Virus record (IMG/VR): IMGVR_UViG_3300023184_002554
Location: 1-33,542 of that record
DNA: 33,542 nucleotides
Strand: one strand, 5' to 3'
DNA from: a virus
The notes below the pieces were generated by a model. It worked only from the letters and a program-made list of their open reading frames with translations. It searched no databases and had not been told where the DNA came from. Below are positions 6,247 to 26,967 of the stretch, in pieces (positions within the stretch are counted from its first letter, which is position 1; every line of letters starts with the position of its first letter). A program made the translations under genes and the position numbers.

Positions 6247-6708
6247 ATGACACGCTTTACAACATTATATCCACAATTTGTTGGTTTTGATAATCTTTTC
6301 AATGAGCTCGAAAGACTTGTTGAAGGTACTACACCACAAAGAAACACATCTTTCCCTCCACATAACATTATCAAAGTAGATGAAAACAAGTATGTCGTTG
6401 AAATGGCTGTTGCTGGTTTTGGGCAAGATGAGGTCGATGTTGAAATCCAAGACGGTACATTAATCGTCAAGGGTGAAAAGAAAGACCAAACTGAAGTGGA
6501 CTATTTGTATCGTGGCATTGCAACTCGTTCTTTCACCAAGTCGATTAGATTGAGTGAAACAATTGAGGTTCGTGGTGCCCAATTCAAAGATGGTATTCTT
6601 AAAATTGGTTTAGAGAATGTAATTCCTGACCATAAGAAACCACGCAAGATTGAATTTAGCAAAGAACTAAACTTCAGTAAACCAACACTGCTTCAAGAAG
6701 CAGCGTAA
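6247..6708 (+). CDS. hsp20: Small heat shock protein, Hsp20/alpha-crystallin family
   Basis: A 153 aa protein. The N-terminal part contains GFDNLFNELERLVEG. The alpha-crystallin domain spans about 35-130 (NIIKVDENKYVVEMAVAGFG, then VDVEIQDGTLIVKGEKK, LYRGIATRSFTKSIRLSETI and the GILKIGLENVIPD end, the last being the usual A-x-x-x-n-GvL motif region). It acts as an ATP-independent holdase. Hsp20 is a near-core gene of T4-like cyanophages and relatives, where it is thought to aid capsid or scaffold folding. AGGAG (6236-6240) lies 6 nt before the start. It has a leader hairpin upstream and a strong terminator downstream, so it is a single-gene unit. Confidence 0.93.
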   Translation: MTRFTTLYPQFVGFDNLFNELERLVEGTTPQRNTSFPPHNIIKVDENKYVVEMAVAGFGQDEVDVEIQDGTLIVKGEKKDQTEVDYLYRGIATRSFTKSIRLSETIEVRGAQFKDGILKIGLENVIPDHKKPRKIEFSKELNFSKPTLLQEAA

Positions 6709-6773: not shown

Positions 6774-6950
6774 ATGTTAAAAAAAGATAAAAACTTCCGC
6801 ATTTCTAAACAAGTCAAACGAACAATGGCAACTTTTATTGACCCTGTTGCTCGGCATGCTTACAAGAATTCAATGATTGAAGCTCAAATTTTTGGGTCAC
6901 AAATTTTTGAAAAGAAAAAGAAACGTGCGAATGAAACAGAAACTACTTAA
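6774..6950 (+). CDS. Small basic protein, 58 aa, unknown function
   Basis: The ORF starts MLKKDKNFRISKQVKRTMA and runs through DPVARHAYKNSMIEAQ to a Lys-rich tail EKKKKRANETETT. It is the first gene after the hsp20 terminator and behind a TATAAT box. Its end overlaps the dCMP deaminase start by 20 bp, consistent with coupling. The high Lys/Arg content and two helices suggest nucleic acid or protein binding. Reading this frame through to the stop at 6948-6950 explains a stretch that would otherwise look intergenic. Confidence 0.6.
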   Translation: MLKKDKNFRISKQVKRTMATFIDPVARHAYKNSMIEAQIFGSQIFEKKKKRANETETT

Positions 6951-7437
6951 TGCATATATGAAGACTGCGGAGACATTTGCTGAATGTTCTACCGCAGTAA
7001 GACTTCATGTTGGTGCAATTGTTGTTAAAGAAGACCGAATAATTTCCATTGGTTACAATGGCATGCCTTCAGGTTGGGATAACAACTGTGAAATCAAAGA
7101 GTACATGAGTGGTGATGCTGGTGGTTGGTTGGATGCCGATGAGATTGAAGAACGATGGCCATATAAAGATCCAAAAGAAGATAATCGTTGGACACGATAT
7201 AATCTGAAAACTAAACCTGAGGTGTTACATGCTGAAACAAATGCGATTGCAAAACTTGCTAAGTCTAACGAATCTGGTTTGGGTGCTACTATGTTTATTA
7301 CCCATGCTCCATGTTTGGACTGTGCCAAACTTATATACCAAAGTGGTATTAGTAGTGTTCTATATCGGAACTCTTATCGGTCTGATGATGGTGTCTCGTT
7401 TCTACAAAAAGCAGGAGTAACAGTTGAAAAAATATAG
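6931..7437 (+). CDS. cd: Deoxycytidylate (dCMP) deaminase
   Basis: A 168 aa protein with the zinc-binding deaminase motifs HAE (100-102) and PCLDC (127-131), the N-terminal TFAECSTAVRLHVGAIVVKEDRI and the substrate loop GYNGMPSGWDN. It converts dCMP to dUMP, feeding dTMP synthesis. The long insert between GYNG and HAE (residues about 48-98) is typical of the phage enzyme. I chose the ATG at 6931 because it begins with MKQKLLNAYMKTAETFAE, the usual N-terminus of the family; an upstream in-frame TTG at 6877 would add 18 unrelated basic residues and lie deep in the previous gene. Confidence 0.9.
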   Translation: MKQKLLNAYMKTAETFAECSTAVRLHVGAIVVKEDRIISIGYNGMPSGWDNNCEIKEYMSGDAGGWLDADEIEERWPYKDPKEDNRWTRYNLKTKPEVLHAETNAIAKLAKSNESGLGATMFITHAPCLDCAKLIYQSGISSVLYRNSYRSDDGVSFLQKAGVTVEKI

Positions 7438-7783: not shown

Positions 7784-8257
7784 ATGTTAGTTATGCCAGA
7801 TACTATGATAGGCAAACCAGTTGGTTTTACCTGTTCAACTTTTGATTTACTTCATGCAGGACATATTCTTATGTTGGCTGAATGTAAACAAATCTGTGAT
7901 TACTTAATTGTTGGTGTTCAAAGTGACCCAACAATTGATAGACCAGGAACTAAAAACAAACCAGTACAATCTATTGTTGAACGATATGTCCAACTCTCTG
8001 CGGTTAAATTTGTAGATGAAATAATTGTCTATAATACCGAAAAAGACCTTGAAGATATGTTAATGTTCTTGCCTATTAGTGTTCGTATTATTGGTGAAGA
8101 ATATAAAGACAAAGATTTTACAGGTAAACAAATCTGTGAAGACCGTGGTATCAAAGTGTGGTACAACTCCCGCTCACACCGATTCAGTTCTTCTGAATTG
8201 AGACAGAGAACATATCAATCCGAAATGAATAAACAAGTGAGTAAAAAAGATGAGTAA
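7784..8257 (+). CDS. Cytidylyltransferase-like nucleotidyltransferase (TagD/RfaE2 type)
   Basis: A 157 aa protein with the HxGH signature in GFTCSTFDLLHAGHILMLAECK and the C-terminal SSSELRQR, which corresponds to the second (RTxGISTT-like) motif. The middle YLIVGVQSDPTIDRPGTKNKP and QSIVERYVQLSAVKFVDEII segments are typical of glycerol-3-phosphate cytidylyltransferase-like enzymes. These transfer CMP or AMP to a phosphorylated small molecule. The acceptor here is unknown; it could feed sugar activation for the glycosyltransferases of the window. GAGGTGG precedes the start. It overlaps the MazG-like gene by 8 bp. Confidence 0.82.
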   Translation: MLVMPDTMIGKPVGFTCSTFDLLHAGHILMLAECKQICDYLIVGVQSDPTIDRPGTKNKPVQSIVERYVQLSAVKFVDEIIVYNTEKDLEDMLMFLPISVRIIGEEYKDKDFTGKQICEDRGIKVWYNSRSHRFSSSELRQRTYQSEMNKQVSKKDE

Positions 8258-8642
8258 AACTTTTACTGATGTTAAAATGTTTATGTTGGCTTCAGGTCAA
8301 ACATTAAACCGTGACAATGAAGAACAAGCACAATTATATCATCGTTTAATCAATGAAGAATATAATGAATTTATTGTTGCAAGAAATCAAAAAGATGATG
8401 TTGAGACTTTAGATGCTTGCTTCGATATGATGTGGGTTATTATTGGTTATATGTTATCAAAAGGTTATGATGTTGAGGGTGCATGGGATGAAGGTGCAAG
8501 AAGTAACCTTGCCAAGATTGATGAAGTTACAGGCAAAGTTATCAAACGTGCTGATGGTAAAGTTTTGAAGCCAGAAGGTTGGAAGAAACCAGACTTCAGC
8601 AAGTTTACCTGTAAAACTATTGCGCTCGACACCAAAATCTGA
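8250..8642 (+). CDS. MazG-like nucleotide pyrophosphohydrolase
   Basis: A 130 aa protein. The motif LINEEYNEFIVA fits the ExxE metal-binding helix of all-alpha NTP pyrophosphatases, and DACFDMMWVIIGYMLSKGYD fits the second acidic helix. The tail DEVTGKVIKRADGKVLKPEGWKKPDF is typical of the phosphoribosyl-ATP-pyrophosphohydrolase-like phage proteins. It should hydrolyse NTPs or dNTPs to the monophosphate, balancing the pool or lowering ppGpp-like signals. Its TGA stop forms part of a downstream extended -10 element. Confidence 0.8.
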   Translation: MSKTFTDVKMFMLASGQTLNRDNEEQAQLYHRLINEEYNEFIVARNQKDDVETLDACFDMMWVIIGYMLSKGYDVEGAWDEGARSNLAKIDEVTGKVIKRADGKVLKPEGWKKPDFSKFTCKTIALDTKI

Positions 8643-17057: not shown

Positions 17058-17074
17058 CCGTGATAGTATAAATA
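17041..17074 (+). promoter_or_regulatory. Composite early/late promoter
   Basis: A perfect T4-type late box TATAAATA lies at 17067-17074. Overlapping it is a host-type promoter: TTGACA (17041-17046), 17 bp, then TAGTAT (17064-17069) preceded by TGA as an extended -10. The TTGACA falls in the last codons of the upstream gene. It stands about 27 bp before the 366 aa gene and marks the switch from replication genes to late genes. Confidence 0.6.
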
Positions 17075-18202: not shown

Positions 18203-19435
18203 ATGAAATTCACACAATTTTTAACCGAAGCAAAAAAAGAAGGTGCAAACCTTCACCTTGAACACCTTGAAGATGAAATTCTAAATCGTGGTGTGCAAGG
18301 TGGTCGTGATGCAATTAATTTTCTACAGGCATTGAGAGATATGCTTGCTGGCCACTCACAAACAAAAGTAAACACTACAACAAAGTGGGATGGTTCACCT
18401 GCAATTTTTTGTGGTATCAATCCAGACAATGGTAAATTCTTTGTTGGTACAAAAGGTGTATTCAATGCAAATGCAAAGTTAAACTATACAGATGATGACA
18501 TTGATAAGAACCATCCAGGTGAAGGTCTTAATGCAAAATTAAAAGTTGCATTACGTTATCTTCCAAAACTTGGCATCAAGGGTGTTCTGCAAGGTGATAT
18601 GATGTTTGCAAAAGGTGACCTATCAGAGAAGACACTTGATGGTGAAAGTTATATTACATTTCAACCAAACACATTAATCTATGCTGTGCCATCTGATTCT
18701 AAACTTGCAAAGACTATGCAGGCTGCACAGATGGGTGTTGTGTTTCATACTTCATACACAGGTAAAACATTTGCTGATATGAAGGCATCATTCAATATTG
18801 ACATTAAAAATTTGACACCAACTAAAGATGTTTGGTTCCGTGATGCATACTTCACCGATGCATCTGGTACTGCATCATTCACAGAAGATGAAACGAAACA
18901 GATAACATCTATTCTATCTACTATCGGTGCAACATTCAAACAAACAAACTCTATGTCTGTTGGTAGAATTTCTGGTAACGACACAATCAGAGAATACATT
19001 AAAACATTCAACAATACGAAAGTGCGTGAAGGCCAAAAGATTACAAACACTGCCGCACATACAAGAGAATTGCTAAAGTGGGTTGAGAATAAGTTGAATG
19101 AAAAAATTATTGATGCAAAGATGGAGAAGACAAAGAGAGAAAAGACCATGATTAAGAATGAAATCATGCGTACTCTCCGTGGTGCTGCAAATGATTTGAA
19201 ACACATATTTGATATGCAAAATGGCATGGTAGATGCTAAGAATATGATTATCAAAAAGTTGCAACAGATGAAACAAGTTACAAGTACATTCGTACAAACA
19301 GAAGACGGTTTCAAAGTGACAAATCCAGAAGGTTTCGTTGCAGTTGATAAACTAACAGGCAATGCAGTTAAGTTGGTTGACAGATTGGAATTCTCTCATT
19401 TGAATTTTACCGCTGCTAAAGCTTGGAGTAAGTGA
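18203..19435 (+). CDS. Ligase-type covalent nucleotidyltransferase with capsid-targeting-like tag
   Basis: A 410 aa protein. It has the motifs of the ATP-dependent ligase / capping enzyme superfamily: motif I KWDG at 61-64 (Lys61 would carry the nucleotide), a following strand FFVGTKGVFN (79-88), a motif III-like GVLQGD (127-132), motif IV EGFV (376-379) and motif V around VKL (389-391). A long helical insert (about 275-355) lies between them. The family seems to be the phage DUF6267 group. The N-terminus MKFTQFLTEA resembles the T4 capsid-targeting sequence. Predicted role: RNA or DNA end joining, possibly inside a newly infected cell. Superfamily is well supported; substrate and packaging are inferred. 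Confidence 0.75.
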   Translation: MKFTQFLTEAKKEGANLHLEHLEDEILNRGVQGGRDAINFLQALRDMLAGHSQTKVNTTTKWDGSPAIFCGINPDNGKFFVGTKGVFNANAKLNYTDDDIDKNHPGEGLNAKLKVALRYLPKLGIKGVLQGDMMFAKGDLSEKTLDGESYITFQPNTLIYAVPSDSKLAKTMQAAQMGVVFHTSYTGKTFADMKASFNIDIKNLTPTKDVWFRDAYFTDASGTASFTEDETKQITSILSTIGATFKQTNSMSVGRISGNDTIREYIKTFNNTKVREGQKITNTAAHTRELLKWVENKLNEKIIDAKMEKTKREKTMIKNEIMRTLRGAANDLKHIFDMQNGMVDAKNMIIKKLQQMKQVTSTFVQTEDGFKVTNPEGFVAVDKLTGNAVKLVDRLEFSHLNFTAAKAWSK

Positions 19436-19461: not shown

Positions 19462-19469
19462 TATAAATA
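19462..19469 (+). promoter_or_regulatory. T4-type late promoter TATAAATA
   Basis: An exact late consensus octamer in the 51-bp gap before the homing endonuclease gene. It stands 25 bp before the ATG and is followed by the ribosome binding site AAGGAG (19475-19480), 6 nt from the start. A T-rich stretch precedes it. Confidence 0.75.
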
Positions 19470-19486: not shown

Positions 19487-20122
19487 ATGCCATATGTCTA
19501 TAAAATAACAAACACAGAAAATAAAAAATCATATGTGGGATATACTAAGAGAGATGATGTTAAAGATAGGATTAAAGAACATTTTTTCAAATCTGTTTAT
19601 ACTAAGAAAGACACTCCTTTTTATAATGCCATAAAAAAATATGGAAAAGAATCTTTTGATTTTGAAATTTTATTTGAATGTTCTGATGAGAAAACGACCC
19701 TACTTAAAGAAATCGAATTTATAAAAATATATGGTGACTATAATTTACATGAAGGTGGAAATGTGCCACCCAATCAAAAAGGTAATCATTGGAATTTGAG
19801 TGATAAAACTAAACAAAAAATGTCAGAGTCTTCCAAGGGTAAAGCTAAAAGTGAGAACCATAAAAAATCTATGAGTGAAAGTCGTAAAGGTAGAAAACCT
19901 TGGAATAGAGGACTAACTGGTGCTCAAGAAAGTATTTGGAAAGGACAAAGAAATAGTCCAATGACAAGTAGTTGGAAAATTACCAAGAACAATACTACAT
20001 ATATTATACAGAATTTAGCTCTGTGGTGTGATGAAAATAATTACAATAAAAATACAGTAAAATATCATTATTATAAAAATTCTTGGCCGTATAAAGACAT
20101 ACAAAATATAGAAAAGGTGTAA
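19487..20122 (+). CDS. Free-standing GIY-YIG homing endonuclease
   Basis: A 211 aa protein with the GIY-YIG domain at 1-95: VYKITNTENKKSYVGYTKR holds the paired strands with Y-V-G-Y, followed by Arg in RIKEHF, and Glu in the ETL-type TTLLKEIEFIKIYG helix. Behind it are NUMOD3-like repeats (KTKQKMSESSKGK, NHKKSMSESRKGRKPWNRG) and a C-terminal DNA-binding part. It cuts DNA to spread its own gene, like T4 Seg proteins. Its codons are more A/T- and Lys-rich than those of its neighbours, a sign of recent arrival. It stands between a late promoter and the late gene at 20126, so it may have inserted into an existing unit. Confidence 0.9.
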   Translation: MPYVYKITNTENKKSYVGYTKRDDVKDRIKEHFFKSVYTKKDTPFYNAIKKYGKESFDFEILFECSDEKTTLLKEIEFIKIYGDYNLHEGGNVPPNQKGNHWNLSDKTKQKMSESSKGKAKSENHKKSMSESRKGRKPWNRGLTGAQESIWKGQRNSPMTSSWKITKNNTTYIIQNLALWCDENNYNKNTVKYHYYKNSWPYKDIQNIEKV

Positions 20123-20125
20123 ATA

Positions 20126-20401
20126 ATGCCTGCATACGATATAAATAAAATTCTAGCAGAGTATGGTGATAATGATTTTGGTTTCTCTGCGGTATCAGAA
20201 GAAGAATATAATGCTGTCATTGCAGAAAAAGATGAGACAGTAGAAGAATATAAGGCAAGATTGGCACAAGTAGAAAAGATTATTATGCCATTCTTAACTA
20301 ACTTATTGAAGACTGCTGACAAACCATATATCAATTGGCCCAATCGTAAACCAATACTTGAAGCACAGATACAAAAGATTCTTGCTTTGACCAGAGGATA
20401 A
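20126..20401 (+). CDS. Conserved small late protein, 91 aa
   Basis: The protein starts MPAYDINKILAEYGDNDFGFSAVSEEEY and continues as a helical, charged region (VEEYKARLAQVEKIIMPFLTNLL) ending WPNRKPILEAQIQKILAL. Close relatives are common in T4-like aquatic phages in the late region, without known function. Length and helical make-up would suit a virion or assembly cofactor. It starts 3 bp after the homing endonuclease stop and was probably once directly behind the late promoter. Confidence 0.6.
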   Translation: MPAYDINKILAEYGDNDFGFSAVSEEEYNAVIAEKDETVEEYKARLAQVEKIIMPFLTNLLKTADKPYINWPNRKPILEAQIQKILALTRG

Positions 20402-20402
20402 A

Positions 20403-20597
20403 ATGTTAGAAGCAGTTATTAGAGTTGTGTCAAATAGAAAAAGAAATTTGACCGAAGAAAAGAAAAGTCCTCATCCTGATATTCTTCCAGTTTCAGGTGC
20501 AGGTCAAGATGGAACAGATACATTAGTGAATACATATAAGAATGATACACCAGGTCAAGGTTTAAAATCATTTAAGGATTATCGCAAGAAAAAATAA
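20403..20597 (+). CDS. Small basic late protein, 64 aa
   Basis: It begins MLEAVIRVVSNRKRNLTEEKK and contains HPDILPVSGAGQDGTDTLVNTYKNDTPGQ, ending in a basic SFKDYRKKK. It starts 1 bp after the previous stop, with CAGAGG as the ribosome binding region. It is disordered-looking apart from the N-terminal helix. The FKDYRKKK and LTEEKK pieces resemble those of head-associated proteins of related phages. Function unknown. Confidence 0.55.
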   Translation: MLEAVIRVVSNRKRNLTEEKKSPHPDILPVSGAGQDGTDTLVNTYKNDTPGQGLKSFKDYRKKK

Positions 20598-20611: not shown

Positions 20612-21466
20612 ATGAAAGATATAGTGATTGGTTTTATTACAGGTTACAGTTTTGATAAGATTGAACCGTGGGTTAATTCATTAGACAGGTCAGGCTTTGA
20701 AGGCACGAAGGCCATGATTTGTTACAATATCAGTTATGATGTTGCAGATGAATTGACAAAGAGAGGTTATACAATCTTTGCTTTTAAGAAGAACGACAAA
20801 GAAAGTCGTTTTGAATACAGGGAAGACTTCTCAATTATGGTCGAAAGGTTTTTACACCTTTGGTACCTACTCAAAAAATTCAAAGGCCAATATCGTTACA
20901 TCATTACTACAGATGTTAAAGATGTTGTCTTTCAATCAAATCCTTCCATCTGGTTAGAAAATAATATTGGTGACAAGAAGATTAATGCTGCCTGTGAGTC
21001 TATGTATTATAAAGATGAAGATTGGGGCACACACAATCTGATGAAGTCATTTGGTCCTTTGATACATGATGCATACAATAACAATCTAATTTTCAATGCA
21101 GGTGTTATCTCTGGTGAGTTTGACACAATGCTCGATGTGTTTCTAAATATTTACATGTTATGTCAAGGCACTTCACATCATATTGAAGGTGGTGGTGGAC
21201 CTGACCAAGCGGCATGGAACATTCTATTGGGTATGAAAACATACCATGATGTTTCACGCAAAACAATGTCAGAAGATGGTTGGGCTGCACAACTAGGCAC
21301 AACTGGTCCACAAATTGCAGGTAAATATGGCAGCAGGCTGGTTGAAAAATCTCCAATTTTAGTAGATAATGTAGTATGTACAAGTGATGGTACACCTTTT
21401 GCAATTGTGCATCAATATGATAGAGTACCTGGATGGAAAGAATTGATTGAGAAAAAATATGCGTAA
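20612..21466 (+). CDS. Glycosyltransferase-like protein (GT-A fold), first of cassette
   Basis: A 284 aa protein. It opens with a strand IVIGFITGYSFDKIEPWVNSL, and carries YIITTDVKDVVFQSNP, where DVKD (101-104) replaces a classic DxD, then FNAGVISGEFDTM and GGGPDQAAWN, the acceptor/catalytic segment typical of nucleotide-sugar transferases. It should transfer a sugar to an unknown acceptor. TTGGAG precedes the start. It is coupled to the next gene by an 8-bp overlap. Confidence 0.7.
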   Translation: MKDIVIGFITGYSFDKIEPWVNSLDRSGFEGTKAMICYNISYDVADELTKRGYTIFAFKKNDKESRFEYREDFSIMVERFLHLWYLLKKFKGQYRYIITTDVKDVVFQSNPSIWLENNIGDKKINAACESMYYKDEDWGTHNLMKSFGPLIHDAYNNNLIFNAGVISGEFDTMLDVFLNIYMLCQGTSHHIEGGGGPDQAAWNILLGMKTYHDVSRKTMSEDGWAAQLGTTGPQIAGKYGSRLVEKSPILVDNVVCTSDGTPFAIVHQYDRVPGWKELIEKKYA

Positions 21467-22187
21467 TGTGATTTTCTGCCCTGTTGGCATCCCACTTAAC
21501 TACCATGATGCCTATGATAAAGAAAATCATTGGCGACTAACTAAACCTACTCGTAATTATGAAGTCATTGCTTATAACTACAATGACTTTCAACCTGAAA
21601 CTGGAACTTATGATACAATTATTCGTGACCAAGGTTTCAAGTGGGACTTAGCCAAACATTTCTTAGATACATTTGACTACAGAGATTTTGATTATATTGG
21701 TTTTTGGGATGATGACCTTGTAACAGATATTCAGAGTATCAATCGTGCATTAGAAATCGCAACGAAAAAAGATATTAAAATGTTTCAGTTGTCAACTATT
21801 GCAGGTTCAGAATCTACACATAGAATTTTACATCAAGTTCCAGGTTACAGTTACAGTCTAACAAACTTTAACGAAGGCATGGGTGGTTTCTTCCATTCAT
21901 CTCTAATACCTATTATAATGGACTTCTGGAAGTACCATGAAGTTAAGAGTGGTTGGGGTTTTGATATTATTCTTGCACCAATTCTAAAACAAAAGGCTGG
22001 TGTAATACATGAAGTATCAATGTATCATCCAGGCAAACCAAGTTACTATGATAAGTCTGCGGCATTTGCGGAGATGGACCATATATTGAGAGAAGTATAT
22101 CCAAAATTTATGAAGGATAGATATAATGAAGATGTTGGTCCTTACAGCGAACCACAAATTGAATACGAATTTACATTTAAGGTATAA
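21459..22187 (+). CDS. DUF707-like glycosyltransferase
   Basis: A 242 aa protein starting MRNVIFCPVGIPLNYHDAYD. The core YIGFWDDDLVTDIQSINRAL has an Asp cluster at 84-86 in the place of the DxD motif, followed by FQLSTIAGSESTHRIL and GMGGFFHSSLIP, which match DUF707-type glycosyltransferase-like proteins. GWGFDIILAPIL continues the catalytic half. I chose the ATG at 21459, which overlaps the previous stop; a TTG 12 bp upstream is in frame but less likely. It works presumably in series with the neighbouring transferase. Confidence 0.72.
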   Translation: MRNVIFCPVGIPLNYHDAYDKENHWRLTKPTRNYEVIAYNYNDFQPETGTYDTIIRDQGFKWDLAKHFLDTFDYRDFDYIGFWDDDLVTDIQSINRALEIATKKDIKMFQLSTIAGSESTHRILHQVPGYSYSLTNFNEGMGGFFHSSLIPIIMDFWKYHEVKSGWGFDIILAPILKQKAGVIHEVSMYHPGKPSYYDKSAAFAEMDHILREVYPKFMKDRYNEDVGPYSEPQIEYEFTFKV

Positions 22188-22189
22188 TT

Positions 22190-23305
22190 ATGGAAATTAT
22201 TAACGCAAGTGCGATATTGAAAAAGAAACAAACAATTCCCGAAGACAAGGTACAAGGTCGTAGTTATACCAGTAACCATGTGAAGTTATTGAAACACATG
22301 GACAGATTACAGTTGATTCAGAATGGTGAAAGACCAAAGCCTGTGATGTTTCATATGTCACCTGCAAACCCATGTAATCTAACATGTTCATTCTGTTGTT
22401 TTGCAAACAGAGCAATGAAAGAAATGTTGACACTAGACCAAATGAAATCTGCAATTGACCAGTTTGCAGACCTTGGTGTTCTAGGTATGGAGTTTACAGG
22501 TGGTGGCGAACCAACACTACATCCACAATTAGATGAAGCAATTGCTCATGCACATAGTCGTGGTCTAAAAATTGGTATCTGTACAAATGGTTCACGATTG
22601 AAGAAAGTTAAGAACTGGCATATGTTGTCATGGGTTCGTCTTGGCATGTATTCATGGGATGAAAAGAAGCCATACCCATATCACCTTGAAGTATTTGAAG
22701 GTTTAGATATTGAAATCTCAGCCGCATATGTTTGGGATGGTGCAACAGAGACTTCTACTAATCCAAATATTACTGGTGAGTGGACTGATACGAAGGCCAA
22801 GAAACTTGCATCTAATGAATATAAAGAAGAAAACTTTATGAAGATGTTGGCATGGGTTGAAGAAAAGAAAATACCATGTCGTATTGCTTTCAATGCAATT
22901 AAACCAGTTGAAGAAGTACAGAAAGATATTGTTAGGATTGGTGAGTTGATTGCTAAACACGAAGAACAACATGGCAAATTGAAATATGCTTTCTTATCAG
23001 ACTTTAATTTCAAGGGTGTTCGTAGAAACGACCATTGTTATATGCATATGGTAAAACCTTGTGTGTTTACAGATGGTAATGTATATGTTTGTCCTTCTGC
23101 TGAATTGGCACCAGAAAATAATTATGCAGTCAATGAAGAATTTAAGATTTGTGATATTGATGGCATTACAGACTTTTATAACTCACAAGTTGGTGGTGCA
23201 GGCGTAAGTCGTAGACACCATGGTTGTTCATTCTGCAAATATGCATATCAAAATGAATTGATTGATGATGTGGTAACGGAGACAAGACATAATGAATTCG
23301 CTTAA
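22190..23305 (+). CDS. Radical SAM enzyme with C-terminal cysteine cluster
   Basis: A 371 aa protein. The radical SAM motif is CNLTCSFC (Cys62, 66, 69), followed by GMEFTGGGEPTLHP, the GGE motif that binds SAM. The C-terminal part has several Cys (CYMHMVKPCVF, NVYVCPSAEL, HHGCSFCKYAY), arranged like a SPASM/Twitch-type auxiliary Fe-S site. Such enzymes modify sugars, peptides or nucleosides by radical chemistry. It begins 2 bp after the DUF707 gene, so its substrate may be a sugar or glycan made by the cassette. The class is certain; the reaction is unknown. Confidence 0.9.
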   Translation: MEIINASAILKKKQTIPEDKVQGRSYTSNHVKLLKHMDRLQLIQNGERPKPVMFHMSPANPCNLTCSFCCFANRAMKEMLTLDQMKSAIDQFADLGVLGMEFTGGGEPTLHPQLDEAIAHAHSRGLKIGICTNGSRLKKVKNWHMLSWVRLGMYSWDEKKPYPYHLEVFEGLDIEISAAYVWDGATETSTNPNITGEWTDTKAKKLASNEYKEENFMKMLAWVEEKKIPCRIAFNAIKPVEEVQKDIVRIGELIAKHEEQHGKLKYAFLSDFNFKGVRRNDHCYMHMVKPCVFTDGNVYVCPSAELAPENNYAVNEEFKICDIDGITDFYNSQVGGAGVSRRHHGCSFCKYAYQNELIDDVVTETRHNEFA

Positions 23306-23915
23306 AAATGTATTTGATGAAAAGTACTTTGAAGATGGTGTTCGCCATCGTGTAAGTGCCTATGAAAATTATCGTTGGATGCCTGAAAGAACAATTCGTG
23401 AGGCATCATCAATCATTAACAATATCAAGTTTGATACAGTATTAGACTATGGTTGTGCTAAAGGTTTCATGGTATATGCCTTGAGACTTTTAGGTAAAGA
23501 AGCATATGGTGCCGATGTATCAGAATATGCCGTTGAGAATTGTCACCCAAAAGTCAAAGAGTACCTACAAGTCATAGAAACTACCGAACAATTGAGTGGT
23601 GGCTGGGACCTAATCATTGCAAAGGATGTACTGGAGCACATACCTAAAGACTTAATTCCGTCCGTACTATCTGAGTTAAGACGCAGATGTAAAACTCTAT
23701 TTGTCGCTGTTCCTTTAGGTGACGGCAAACGATACCGAATCCGTGAATATGAAATGGATGTTACACATGTCGTAAGAGAACCCGAAGAATGGTGGTTAAC
23801 AACTATTGTTGATGCAGGTTTCAAAATCAAATATTTCGATTATGAATTTGGGCATCTAAAAGAAAATTGGACAGGGAATCATCCCCATGGCAACGCATTT
23901 ATAGTGGCAGAATAA
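23292..23915 (+). CDS. Class I SAM-dependent methyltransferase
   Basis: A 207 aa protein with Rossmann motif I TVLDYGCAKGFMVYAL (about 49-64), an acidic AYGADVSEYAVE at the end of strand 2, and WDLIIAKDVLEHIP as motif post-II/IV. The last part (DVTHVVREPEEWW, NWTGNHPHGNAF) would form the substrate pocket. The form is that of small-molecule or sugar O-methyltransferases rather than DNA methylases, as no target recognition domain or DPPY-type motif is present. It overlaps the radical SAM gene by 14 bp. Confidence 0.85.
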   Translation: MNSLKNVFDEKYFEDGVRHRVSAYENYRWMPERTIREASSIINNIKFDTVLDYGCAKGFMVYALRLLGKEAYGADVSEYAVENCHPKVKEYLQVIETTEQLSGGWDLIIAKDVLEHIPKDLIPSVLSELRRRCKTLFVAVPLGDGKRYRIREYEMDVTHVVREPEEWWLTTIVDAGFKIKYFDYEFGHLKENWTGNHPHGNAFIVAE

Positions 23916-24496
23916 TGGAACATTTTTATCAAAATGTACCTGGACATTTCAATTATGAAAATGTTTACAGACAACTAATCGCTTTTACACCACCAAATTC
24001 AAAAGAGAAATTCGTTGAGATTGGTGCATGGAAAGGTAAGTCTGTATGTTATGCCGCAGTAGAGATTATCAATTCAGATAAAGATATTCATTTTGATTCT
24101 ATTGATACATGGGAGGGTTCGCCTGGTGAACCCGTTCTTATGAATGATGAATCAGTTATCAATAAAACACTTTATGATGAGTTTATAACAAACATTCAAC
24201 CAGTTAGACATATTGTTACTCCAATAAGATTACCAAGTGTACAGGCTGCAAACATGTATGCAGACAATAGTATTTTCTTTGTTTTCATTGATGGTTCACA
24301 CCTCTATGAAGCAGTAAAAGAAGACATTCTTGCATGGTTGCCAAAGGTAAAATCGGGTGGATTTATTGGTGGCCACGATATTGACCAACCAGAAGAATTT
24401 AATGGTGTCCGTAGAGCAGTAGATGAGGTTATTGGTTCTAAAAACATCGCAATTTATAATAAAGGATGGGCGTCTTGGTTGCACCGTAAAGCATGA
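23915..24496 (+). CDS. Class I methyltransferase (Methyltransf_24/CmcI-like)
   Basis: A 193 aa protein, ATG overlapping the previous stop by 1 bp. Motif I is FVEIGAWKGKSVCYAAVE (33-50), motif II region HFDSIDTWEGSPGE, and FVFIDGSHLYEAVKEDI with DGSH, the hallmark of the Methyltransf_24 group, followed by KSGGFIGGHDID. These residues commonly bind a metal and a sugar or phenol hydroxyl. It ends the cassette; a late promoter for the next gene overlaps its stop codon region. An in-frame TTG at 23867 exists but would run 48 bp into the previous gene. Confidence 0.85.
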   Translation: MEHFYQNVPGHFNYENVYRQLIAFTPPNSKEKFVEIGAWKGKSVCYAAVEIINSDKDIHFDSIDTWEGSPGEPVLMNDESVINKTLYDEFITNIQPVRHIVTPIRLPSVQAANMYADNSIFFVFIDGSHLYEAVKEDILAWLPKVKSGGFIGGHDIDQPEEFNGVRRAVDEVIGSKNIAIYNKGWASWLHRKA

Positions 24497-24510
24497 TAAA
24501 TACTAAATAG
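24495..24510 (+). promoter_or_regulatory. Late promoter GATAAATA (with adjacent CTAAATAG)
   Basis: GATAAATA (24495-24502) matches the late consensus except for the first base, and CTAAATAG (24503-24510) follows at once. It lies 38 bp before the 808 aa gene; GAGG (24531-24534) and GGAG (24536-24539) serve as ribosome binding bases. Confidence 0.65.
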
Positions 24511-24540: not shown

Positions 24541-26967
24541 ATGAAATTTAGAGATTTTATCAACGAAAATAAAGAGGTTCACCATGTCATGGCATTTGGC
24601 CGCATGTCACCTCCCACTACAGGCCACGAAGTCTTAGTAAACAAAGTCAAAGATGTTGCTAAAGAACATGGTGCCAGTCACAGCGTAGTTCTATCCCACA
24701 CACAAGATAAAGAAAAGAATCCTTTATCTTCCGAAGATAAACTCAAACACGCAAAAAGATTCTTTCCAAAAACAAACCTCTCTACATCCAGTAAAGAGTC
24801 TCCTACATTCCTTTCTCATGCAGAAAAGTTACACAAACAAGGTGTAACACACTTACACATGGTGGCAGGTTCTGACCGTGTTCCAGAATACAAAAAGAAA
24901 CTTGCACAGTACAATGGTAAGGGTGAAGGTAAATTATTCAACTTCAAAAAGATAACAGTACACAGCGCAGGCGAAAGAGACCCTGATGCTGAAGGTACTA
25001 CAGGCATGTCTGCATCTAAAATGCGAGCACATGCTGCATCTGGTAATTTCAAAGAATTCAAAAAAGGCATACCTGCACATGTGCCTGAACATCATGCAAA
25101 AGAAATGTTCCATGATGTGCGTAAGGGTATGCAAGTCAAAGAGAGTATTAATGAAGAATTTCAAACTCTTTTGTTTGAAGGCGTACATGATAAGGCCATT
25201 TTCAAAGCAGTATTTTTAGCAGGTGGGCCAGGTTCTGGTAAAGACTATGTGTTAGATAACACACTTGCAGGTCATGGTATGACCGAAATGAATTCAGATA
25301 AAGCACTTGAGTTTTTGATGGACAAAGAAGGTCTTGATAAAACTATGCCTGCATCAGAAGAAGAAAAACGAAACCTCACAAGAGGAAAAGCAAAGAACAT
25401 TACAGAGTTGCGTCAACGCCTTGCAATTCTAGGTCGTAATGGTTTGATTATCAATGGCACTGGTGATGATGTAGAAAAGATTGCAAAGATTAAAAAGAAA
25501 CTAGAAGAAGTTGGTTACGAATCATCAATGGTTCTAGTTAATACTGCTGACGAAGTTTCTAAACAAAGAAACATTGAAAGAGGTCAGCGTGGTGGTCGTA
25601 CAGTACCAGAAAACATTCGCAAAGAAAAATGGGATGGCGTACAAGCAGGTCGTCCTGAGTTTGCAAAGATGTTTGGTGATAATTATATGGAGTTTGATAA
25701 CTCTGAAGATTTAAGACAAGCACCACCTGAAGTAGTCAAGGCTAAAAAAGACGAGATGCTTCAGATGTTCACAAAGATAAAAGAATTCGTGGCAAAACCA
25801 CCAGAGAATCCAGTTGCATCAGCATGGGTTGCAATGGAGTTGCAAAAGAAAGATACACTACCAGTACCAAAAGATGGTGCAGAACAAACACCACATGCAG
25901 ATTCAGGTGCGGCTGAAGAAGCTCGCAAGATGGGTCTGAAGTATTATGGTTTTGGTAGATATGGTAAAGATGGCATAGTAACACACAGAGTTGTGCATGA
26001 TAAACTTGTTGAGGTTGAAAAAGAACCACACAAAGAACCTAATGTTCCAACCTCAGGAAGTTCGATGAAGAAACCAGAACCTAAAAAAGTAAATGAAGAA
26101 TTTCAAAAGTTCTTATCTGAATCAGTAACAGTTTCAATCACTGGTGATACAGTTGAAGAAGTCCAAAGCATGATGAGTTCAATGCAAACTGGACATACAA
26201 CAGAACAAAATAATACATATTATGGCCTTTCAAATCATAGTGAGAGTTTGACACTTGGTAAAACAATGAATGTCATTGGTGAGAAACAATACTCACAAGA
26301 AGTAACAAATGATGATATCAATGCAATATTTGAAGAAAAGAAAGTCAAGTTATTGCGTGGTAAAGATGGCAAACCAAGAATCTTTTTGATTCGCCGTTCA
26401 GCTGCAAAAGAATCCCATCTGCGTGGTGGTGAAGTAATGAAACACCCGAAGGGTTATGTTGTAAAAATAAAAGAGGAGAACGACAATGTTGAGACTAGTA
26501 AAGAGCTTTTTGAGCAGAGCGAAACCACCAAAAGAAGAAGTACCAGCACCTTCCTTGCCGAAGGAAGAATTGCCAACAACGGACTTGAAAGTGGAAACTA
26601 CAACTTCACTCCAGCCGCAGCAAGTATCGGAATCAACAGTACAGAACAAGGACAAGGCGAAGCCAAGTCAACCAAAATCACCCTCAACCAAATCCGCGCC
26701 AAACAAAAAGAAGCAAGGCAGAACCAGCAAGAAAGCATCGACAAAGGCATAGAACCTGGTCTTTCAATGGCGACCTCAGGTGAAAACCTAGGTCGTGCAT
26801 CTGGTGAAAAGATTAGTTTTAAGAAGCGTGGTCGTGCAGGCATTACTGAAACAATTGGTGCAGGTGGTGAAGATGCAACATCAAATTCTGATGAAAGAGA
26901 ATTAGAATTAAAAAGAAAAGGCATCAACCTAAAATCATTCAAAGCAAATAGGTCTATCAGCTCATGA
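24541..26967 (+). CDS. Multidomain head-internal enzyme: nucleotidylyltransferase + P-loop kinase
   Basis: An 808 aa protein. Residues 1-10 (MKFRDFINEN) resemble a T4 capsid-targeting sequence. Domain 1 (about 12-170) has MSPPTTGHEVLV (TTGH as the HxGH-type motif, 26-29) and GMSASKMR (155-162), the second motif of NMN/pantetheine-phosphate adenylyltransferases. Domain 2 (about 215-430) has Walker A GGPGSGKD (228-235), MNSDKALEF with a catalytic-type Asp, and the ERGQRGGRTVPENI lid, as in zeta toxins and polynucleotide kinases. NEEFQTLLFE (204-213) and NEEFQKFLSE (518-527) are near-identical motifs separating the domains, and FLAE (671-674) is a third similar site. The rest is charged and probably disordered. 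Enzyme folds are well supported; substrates and cleavage are inferred. Confidence 0.75.
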   Translation: MKFRDFINENKEVHHVMAFGRMSPPTTGHEVLVNKVKDVAKEHGASHSVVLSHTQDKEKNPLSSEDKLKHAKRFFPKTNLSTSSKESPTFLSHAEKLHKQGVTHLHMVAGSDRVPEYKKKLAQYNGKGEGKLFNFKKITVHSAGERDPDAEGTTGMSASKMRAHAASGNFKEFKKGIPAHVPEHHAKEMFHDVRKGMQVKESINEEFQTLLFEGVHDKAIFKAVFLAGGPGSGKDYVLDNTLAGHGMTEMNSDKALEFLMDKEGLDKTMPASEEEKRNLTRGKAKNITELRQRLAILGRNGLIINGTGDDVEKIAKIKKKLEEVGYESSMVLVNTADEVSKQRNIERGQRGGRTVPENIRKEKWDGVQAGRPEFAKMFGDNYMEFDNSEDLRQAPPEVVKAKKDEMLQMFTKIKEFVAKPPENPVASAWVAMELQKKDTLPVPKDGAEQTPHADSGAAEEARKMGLKYYGFGRYGKDGIVTHRVVHDKLVEVEKEPHKEPNVPTSGSSMKKPEPKKVNEEFQKFLSESVTVSITGDTVEEVQSMMSSMQTGHTTEQNNTYYGLSNHSESLTLGKTMNVIGEKQYSQEVTNDDINAIFEEKKVKLLRGKDGKPRIFLIRRSAAKESHLRGGEVMKHPKGYVVKIKEENDNVETSKELFEQSETTKRRSTSTFLAEGRIANNGLESGNYNFTPAAASIGINSTEQGQGEAKSTKITLNQIRAKQKEARQNQQESIDKGIEPGLSMATSGENLGRASGEKISFKKRGRAGITETIGAGGEDATSNSDERELELKRKGINLKSFKANRSISS
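26486..26752 (+). CDS. Candidate nested ORF, Pro/Lys-rich, 88 aa
   Basis: An ORF in the +1 frame of the 808 aa gene. AGGAG (26474-26478) lies 7 nt before its ATG, the best placed ribosome binding site in this gene. It starts MLRLVKSFLSRAKPPKEEV and turns into a Pro, Lys, Ser and Thr-rich tail. Within this stretch the main frame uses many C-ending codons (ACC, GCC, ATC, AAC) unlike its usual A/T-ending ones, while the nested frame shows the more typical A-ending codons. That suggests the nested frame is under selection. It could also be chance or a local frame swap. No homologue is known to me. Confidence 0.4.
   Translation: MLRLVKSFLSRAKPPKEEVPAPSLPKEELPTTDLKVETTTSLQPQQVSESTVQNKDKAKPSQPKSPSTKSAPNKKKQGRTSKKASTKA

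Follow-up and report, generated by a model that had tools for sequence, protein, structure and literature searches.

What a phage would make with two predicted glycosyltransferases, a radical S-adenosylmethionine (SAM) enzyme, and two methyltransferases encoded in one row is the question raised by a cassette at positions 20612–24496 of a viral DNA stretch of 33,542 nucleotides (IMG/VR record IMGVR_UViG_3300023184_002554), the whole of which is hereafter called the window. The source of this 33.5 kb window is an environmental T4-like phage of the Kyanoviridae type: its DNA polymerase, UvsX-like, and DnaB-like helicase genes matched T4-type families, and the nearest phage relatives of the polymerase, each approximately 50% identical, came mostly from cyanophages and marine viruses. 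On the evidence presented below, we consider it rather probable that this T4-like phage has an exchangeable slot for glycan tailoring and that the cassette represents one of its alleles.

A conserved cassette in an exchangeable slot

The five plus-strand genes, GT1 (20612–21466), GT2 (approximately 21459–22187), rSAM (22190–23305), MT1 (23292–23915), and MT2 (23915–24496), all abut or overlap, and both the gene calls and the family assignments agreed with the initial annotation, which had described five genes, touching, overlapping, or a few bases apart, for two glycosyltransferases, a radical SAM enzyme, and two methyltransferases. GT1 and GT2 overlap by 8 nt, rSAM and MT1 by 14 nt, and the stop codon of MT1 and the ATG of MT2 are shared as TAATG; the start of GT2 is taken here as the ATG at 21459 (the longest open reading frame starts earlier, at the TTG at 21447) and that of MT2 as the ATG at 23915 (the listed open reading frame begins at the TTG at 23867). 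Such overlaps suggest that the cassette forms a single transcription unit with translational coupling.

Relatives of rSAM, the core of the cassette, were found in 104 IMG/VR stretches, of which the best 80 were kept. In 60 of these 80 loci, GT2 precedes rSAM by no more than 100 nt, and in 7 further loci by up to 1.5 kb. Of the 65 loci that offer room for MT1, 59 have it no more than 100 nt past rSAM and 5 have it within 1 kb. Reciprocal scans centred on MT1, GT2, and GT1, which remove the bias of the rSAM bait, revealed rSAM upstream of MT1 in all of the 76 MT1-centred loci with enough flank, and downstream of GT2 in 58 of the 60 testable GT2-centred loci. GT1 has at least 584 relatives; where a GT1-centred locus left 2 kb or more of room, which was so in 41 cases, both GT2 and rSAM were present in 21, neither in 18, and GT2 only in two. 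rSAM and MT1 are an obligate pair, and the pairwise identities of MT1 correlated with those of rSAM at 0.90 (0.61–0.79 for the remaining genes). All five genes were under purifying selection (median dN/dS 0.08–0.18). Since the order is kept in dozens of contigs under such selection, the gene row is not due to chance, and the cassette predicted by the initial annotation proved to be real, selected, and co-transferred, its genes occurring together in the relatives instead of being scattered.

The site is empty in four isolates, namely Methylophilales phage Melnitz, phage C48C1, Pelagibacter phage HTVC008M, and Synechococcus phage S-8S53, in which no more than a single small unrelated gene separates the DUF6267 gene from the cytidyltransferase/kinase genes that come after it. 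In the window, the corresponding plus-strand flanks are the DUF6267 gene on the left (18203–19435; DUF6267, 2.6e-109) and a cytidyltransferase and zeta-toxin-like kinase gene on the right (24541–26967; phrog_3041, 2.2e-65; Zeta_toxin, 3.9e-12), and two small genes on the same strand (20126–20401 and 20403–20597), both of which are kept in alleles lacking rSAM, stand to the left of GT1. Environmental relatives with GT1 at the same place differ in the genes behind it; the alternative alleles encode a Methyltransf_24 enzyme, a protein with a weak GT-B-like match, a GDP-mannose-dehydratase-like enzyme, a GHMP kinase, and a fusion of a nucleotidyltransferase with a mannose-6-phosphate-isomerase domain. 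Slot contents were compared in 57 loci that had sufficient room and differed in GT1 sequence: 38 had rSAM, 18 had an NDP-sugar dehydratase/epimerase, one had neither, and none had both within 3 kb. Because the loci are related and were partly sampled by bait, the Fisher value for these counts is purely descriptive. In three of the loci (L267, L268, and L344), the dehydratase follows GT1 and GT2, in the place where rSAM and MT1 would stand, and L267 also has a methyltransferase. The slot behind the conserved first gene, GT1, is exchangeable, and the cassette is one of its alleles. That the rSAM module swaps with ordinary nucleotide-sugar enzymes is the best available evidence for rSAM editing a sugar, and the simplest reading is that rSAM and MT1 do the sugar-editing job done elsewhere by NDP-sugar enzymes.

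Several further observations concern the slot and its flanks. Genes resembling GIY-YIG homing endonucleases occur beside or within the cassette region, at 19487–20122 in the window and between rSAM and MT1 in three relatives (L017, L020, and L021), and are a possible agent of the allele exchange. The two flanking genes share similar short leaders, MKFTQFLTEA and MKFRDFINEN, and leaders of this kind also open related genes in Melnitz and C48C1. They resemble the leaders that direct internal head proteins of T4 to the capsid, and the slot-flanking genes may encode packaged proteins. The cytidyltransferase-like and zeta-toxin-like P-loop kinase domains fused in the right-flank gene match separate neighbouring genes in HTVC008M. 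The initial annotation had placed the cassette between head-type genes, which applies in part: the immediate flanks are the DUF6267 and cytidyltransferase/kinase genes, and a virion-protein family (phrog_1645) begins 3.4 kb downstream.

Predicted activities of the five proteins

GT1 gave no match in either Pfam or NCBIfam and only a weak match to a PHROG glycosyltransferase (E 0.0018). However, its AlphaFold model (20 sequences) reached a pLDDT of 94.6, and the top Foldseek matches of this model in the PDB, including LARGE1, WbbM, a GT8 protein, and an alpha-1,3-galactosyltransferase, were all GT-A proteins (E ~1e-8, TM ~0.5). The region of the metal site contains two invariant residues, D101 and D104, and GT1 is predicted with high confidence to be a GT-A fold glycosyltransferase with an Asp-containing metal/nucleotide site. 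GT2 is a putative glycosyltransferase according to its match to Pfam DUF707 (25.2 bits, barely above the cut-off of 24.1), and the alignment showed an invariant DDD at D88–D90. Mutual homology of GT1 and GT2 was ruled out (hhalign probability 0.2%), and a PDB sequence search with the profiles of both proteins gave nothing useful.

The rSAM protein matched the Pfam Radical_SAM family (2.5e-13), and in 27 sequences the CX3CX2C motif (C62, C66, and C69), G105-G106-E107 within TGGGEP, and four C-terminal Cys residues (C283, C301, C346, and C349) were invariant. In the twitch arrangement, a Cys residue stands on either side of a C-terminal beta-hairpin and two more come as a pair after the next helix, together binding one auxiliary cluster, and BtrN holds its auxiliary cluster by four Cys residues (PMC6231123). 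The moderate model of rSAM (pLDDT 64) places a hairpin (290–300) and a helix (323–331) between the C-terminal Cys residues, which fits this pattern and points to a twitch-type enzyme with a fully ligated cluster; by its motifs and Cys pattern, rSAM is thus predicted to be a twitch-domain radical SAM enzyme. The nearest solved sequences included the sugar/nucleoside enzymes AbmM (the nearest, 7e-12) and BlsE (1e-8). As structural neighbours, PqqE, DesII, SuiB, and MoaA were tied at Z ~16, and BtrN matched the model with Z 12.8 over 210 residues at an identity of 17%.

A cellular origin of rSAM was considered and rejected, as a search of 84,980 species genomes with two short peptide patterns, which was not exhaustive, returned a single close match. 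This match, on a 9.5 kb contig of a Saprospiraceae metagenome-assembled genome (L085), contains the rSAM-MT1 pair (rSAM 54% identical) in a gene order much like that of virus contig L073, and is probably a phage contig binned into the genome.

Both MT1 (Methyltransf_23, 2.8e-10) and MT2 (Methyltransf_24, 2.8e-17) scored above the Pfam cut-offs and are, by family assignment, class I SAM methyltransferases. MT2 is facultative, being missing from several relatives. Its nearest solved relative, yet a distant one, is 6g7d (8e-8), deposited as 'Methyltransferase domain protein', which we take to be MeT1, a sugar methyltransferase of mycobacteria. The latter enzyme acts as an O-methyltransferase on sugar and is encoded in a glycosyltransferase/methyltransferase gene cluster (PMC9883506).

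The proposed glycan and its acceptor

In the glycan-tailoring reading, GT1, which is common to the alleles, would probably transfer the first sugar from a nucleotide-sugar donor to the acceptor, and GT2 would add a second one. By analogy with BtrN and SpeY, rSAM would cleave SAM to the 5'-deoxyadenosyl radical, which would take a hydrogen from a sugar carbon, and the auxiliary Fe-S cluster would accept an electron to give a keto, epimerised, or otherwise altered sugar. MT1 would then O-methylate the altered sugar, and MT2, where present, would add one more methyl group. The donors would come from host or phage enzymes, for example from the product of an HldE-like nucleotidyltransferase gene located 12.4 kb upstream on the plus strand (7784–8257).

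The initial annotation had called the latter gene TagD-like and proposed it as the donor supplier. It is closer to HldE (TIGR02199, 3e-22, below the curated cut-off) than to TagD (TIGR01518, 2.8e-14), with CTP_transf_like above cut-off, and the TagD identity was therefore abandoned; the possible role in donor activation gained some support, as homologues are located inside the cassette in four relatives (L023, L039, L040, and L044). A full phage-encoded heptose route was likewise rejected, a SIS_2/GmhA match being absent from the contigs of 11 relatives. Around the HldE-like gene, the window encodes an HSP20-like chaperone (6247–6708), a dCMP/cytidine-deaminase-like protein (6877–7437), and a MazG-like pyrophosphohydrolase (8250–8642). 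Elsewhere, just upstream of the gp45-like clamp gene, a phrog_1574 protein (1606–2421) gave a weak Anp1 glycosyltransferase-like match (1.3e-5, below cut-off) and is possibly a further glycosyltransferase.

Where rSAM and MT1 occur at other genome positions, their neighbours are genes for NDP-sugar epimerases, a DegT aminotransferase, UDP-glucose dehydrogenase, an NAD-synthase-like protein, and members of the GT2, GT17, and GT25 families. In SynMITS9220M01, the pair (rSAM 55% and MT1 50% identical) stands within a run that includes heptose kinase, phosphoheptose isomerase, and epimerase genes (PMC7378029), and in HTVC008M, a relative of MT1 (46%) and a distant rSAM (22%) stand beside carbamoyltransferase and UDP-glucose dehydrogenase genes. 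The combination of glycosyltransferases and nucleotide-sugar enzymes that marks surface-glycan cassettes thus occurs in the relatives; the five genes of the window themselves include glycosyltransferases but no NDP-sugar enzyme. A cluster of rSAM, glycosyltransferase, methyltransferase, and NodB-like genes was also found one small gene past the major capsid protein gene of a podovirus from a spring (MW202801). This podovirus and the pelagimyophage cassettes (PMC7029224) indicate that the rarity ascribed by the initial annotation to a radical SAM enzyme beside phage glycosyltransferases was overstated.

Concerning expression, 26 of 37 relatives had the motif NATAAATA within 80 nt of the start of the right-flank gene (−41 to −50), and CTAAATA occurred within 80 nt before GT1 in 18 of 69 relatives, mostly at −21 to −30 (~0.7 expected); the chance expectation for such late-promoter-like motifs is ~0.01–0.02 per gene start. 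In the window, the T4-type late-promoter-like motif TATAAATA is located on the plus strand at 17067 and 19462–19469, upstream of the cassette block, its number being not above chance and its positions alone suggestive, and GATAAATA/CTAAATA precedes the right-flank gene (24495–24509, plus strand). Judging from these motifs, the cassette is likely expressed late.

Two narrower forms of the glycan-tailoring reading differ in the acceptor. Glycosylation of the virion, in which a capsid or tail protein would be decorated during late assembly, agrees with the late-promoter-like motifs before GT1 and the right-flank gene, with the leader-like N-termini of the flank genes and the virion-protein family downstream, with the position of the podovirus cluster near the major capsid gene, and with the fit of short two-glycosyltransferase cassettes to protein decoration. 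No acceptor protein was identified, however, and adjoining structural genes do not prove the target; moreover, the same rSAM-MT1 pair stands in LPS/O-chain-like clusters of a pelagiphage and of cyanophages, those of the cyanophages being long, and for genes of this kind in T4-like marine phages the published reading is host O-chain modification (PMC7029224). The virion target suggested by the initial annotation is thus possible, and we hold this form to be a tentative one. Modification of the host O-chain or lipopolysaccharide (LPS), serving superinfection exclusion or receptor masking, is in our view plausible, if short of probable: the gene context in SynMITS9220M01 and HTVC008M, the published readings for pelagimyophages (PMC7029224) and P-SSM2 (PMC2984593), and an allele exchange reminiscent of serotype-type diversity all fit it, but the five genes include no membrane-bound flippase, polymerase, or ligase, the motifs are those of late-type expression, and the slot lies beside replication genes, not in the tail-fibre host-recognition cluster where such genes have mostly been described. 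Provided that a glycan is made, the late motifs and the neighbouring structural genes speak for the virion, and the LPS-like context of distant relatives and the published readings for the host surface; a host surface glycan would then be an evenly balanced prospect as the acceptor, a virion protein a serious if lesser one, and any other acceptor improbable.

Outside the glycan-tailoring reading, the glycosyltransferases and rSAM could act on a modified base of the phage DNA, as T4 glucosylates hydroxymethylcytosine. T4-like phages are able to glucosylate DNA, and radical SAM proteins are known in some base-modification systems. Nevertheless, such hypermodification appears very improbable: a thymidylate-synthase-fold gene (the dCMP/dUMP hydroxymethylase fold) was found in none of the contigs of 11 relatives, which included contigs of 196, 172, 146, and 133 kb (the window itself being a fragment), Tet/JBP matches were below cut-off only, the alternative alleles of the slot are nucleotide-sugar genes, and there is no evidence of modified nucleotides in cyanomyoviruses (PMC2984593). 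Many SPASM/twitch radical SAM proteins use peptides (PMC6231123), and the two small genes just upstream of GT1 could each encode a small peptide for rSAM to modify, in the manner of ribosomally synthesized and post-translationally modified peptides. This, too, is highly unlikely, because the 57 residues before the radical SAM domain are too short for the usual RRE domain, a homologue of the gene at 20126 occurs in Pelagibacter phage Mosig, in which an rSAM match was not found, and both small genes are also retained where an allele lacks rSAM. Least credible is the production of modified nucleotides as by viperin, to which the top NCBIfam and PADLOC matches of the rSAM core belong (1.3e-12 and 4e-16): the match scored 47.5 bits, where the curated cut-off is 180, and covered only residues ~51–160, the four invariant C-terminal Cys residues are typical of twitch enzymes, and the gene lies within a sugar operon.

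Several points also weigh against the preferred reading of the cassette as a glycan-tailoring allele. One locus (L064) has rSAM plus an epimerase further downstream, and the assignment of GT2 depends on a DUF707 score only just over its cut-off. Many loci are near-duplicates, which deprives the counts of independence, and some of the loci were gathered by searching with rSAM itself. Finally, the matches of rSAM to solved enzymes lie mainly in the common core and its model reached a pLDDT of only 64, and hence its substrate and reaction could only be inferred.

Relation to known systems and significance

Phage LPS-type clusters (PMC2984593) and pelagimyophage radical SAM cassettes (PMC7029224) are already known. 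In pelagimyophages, radical SAM cassettes and glycosyltransferases stand in the host-recognition cluster, and such genes have been read as modifying the host O-chain (PMC7029224). The present cassette is similar in that a T4-like marine phage has rSAM in a region rich in glycosyltransferase/LPS-type genes; it differs in occupying another, defined slot with the DUF6267 gene on one side and the cytidyltransferase gene on the other, in its fixed GT1-GT2-rSAM-MT1 order, and in being exchanged for NDP-sugar dehydratase alleles. The LPS clusters of P-SSM2, with 24 genes (PMC2984593), and that of SynMITS9220M01 are likewise phage-borne sets of surface-sugar genes, the latter with the same rSAM-MT1 pair, but they are far larger, contain other glycosyltransferases, and occupy another genome position.

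Among characterized enzymes, the twitch radical SAM dehydrogenases BtrN and SpeY share with rSAM the CX3CX2C motif and the C-terminal Cys residues of the auxiliary cluster, but differ by their low sequence identity. The substrate of SpeY is of the small cyclic polyol/sugar type. The same holds for that of BtrN (PMC9012708). Of the nucleoside/amino-sugar radical SAM enzymes, AbmM and BlsE are near in sequence and DesII belongs to the best matches in structure, the likeness of AbmM and BlsE being confined to the radical SAM core. In the open-licence literature we found no description of the obligate rSAM-MT1 pair, the slot, or its exchange with NDP-sugar dehydratase alleles, which is a weak absence.

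Radical SAM enzymes reach unactivated sugar carbons, a chemistry beyond that of ordinary sugar enzymes. It is conceivable, though we would advance it with reserve, that rSAM represents a nearly virus-restricted family of sugar-editing twitch enzymes that, with an obligate methyltransferase partner, makes a sugar outside the known pathways, and that the cassette is a glycan-switching allele altering the T4-like virion or the host surface. A virus-borne pair swapped one-for-one with NDP-sugar dehydratase modules constitutes a testable case of single-locus phage glycan switching, and relatives of the pair are held by the cultured phages SynMITS9220M01 and HTVC008M. The finding also bears on the targets of the numerous glycosyltransferases found in marine T4-like phages.

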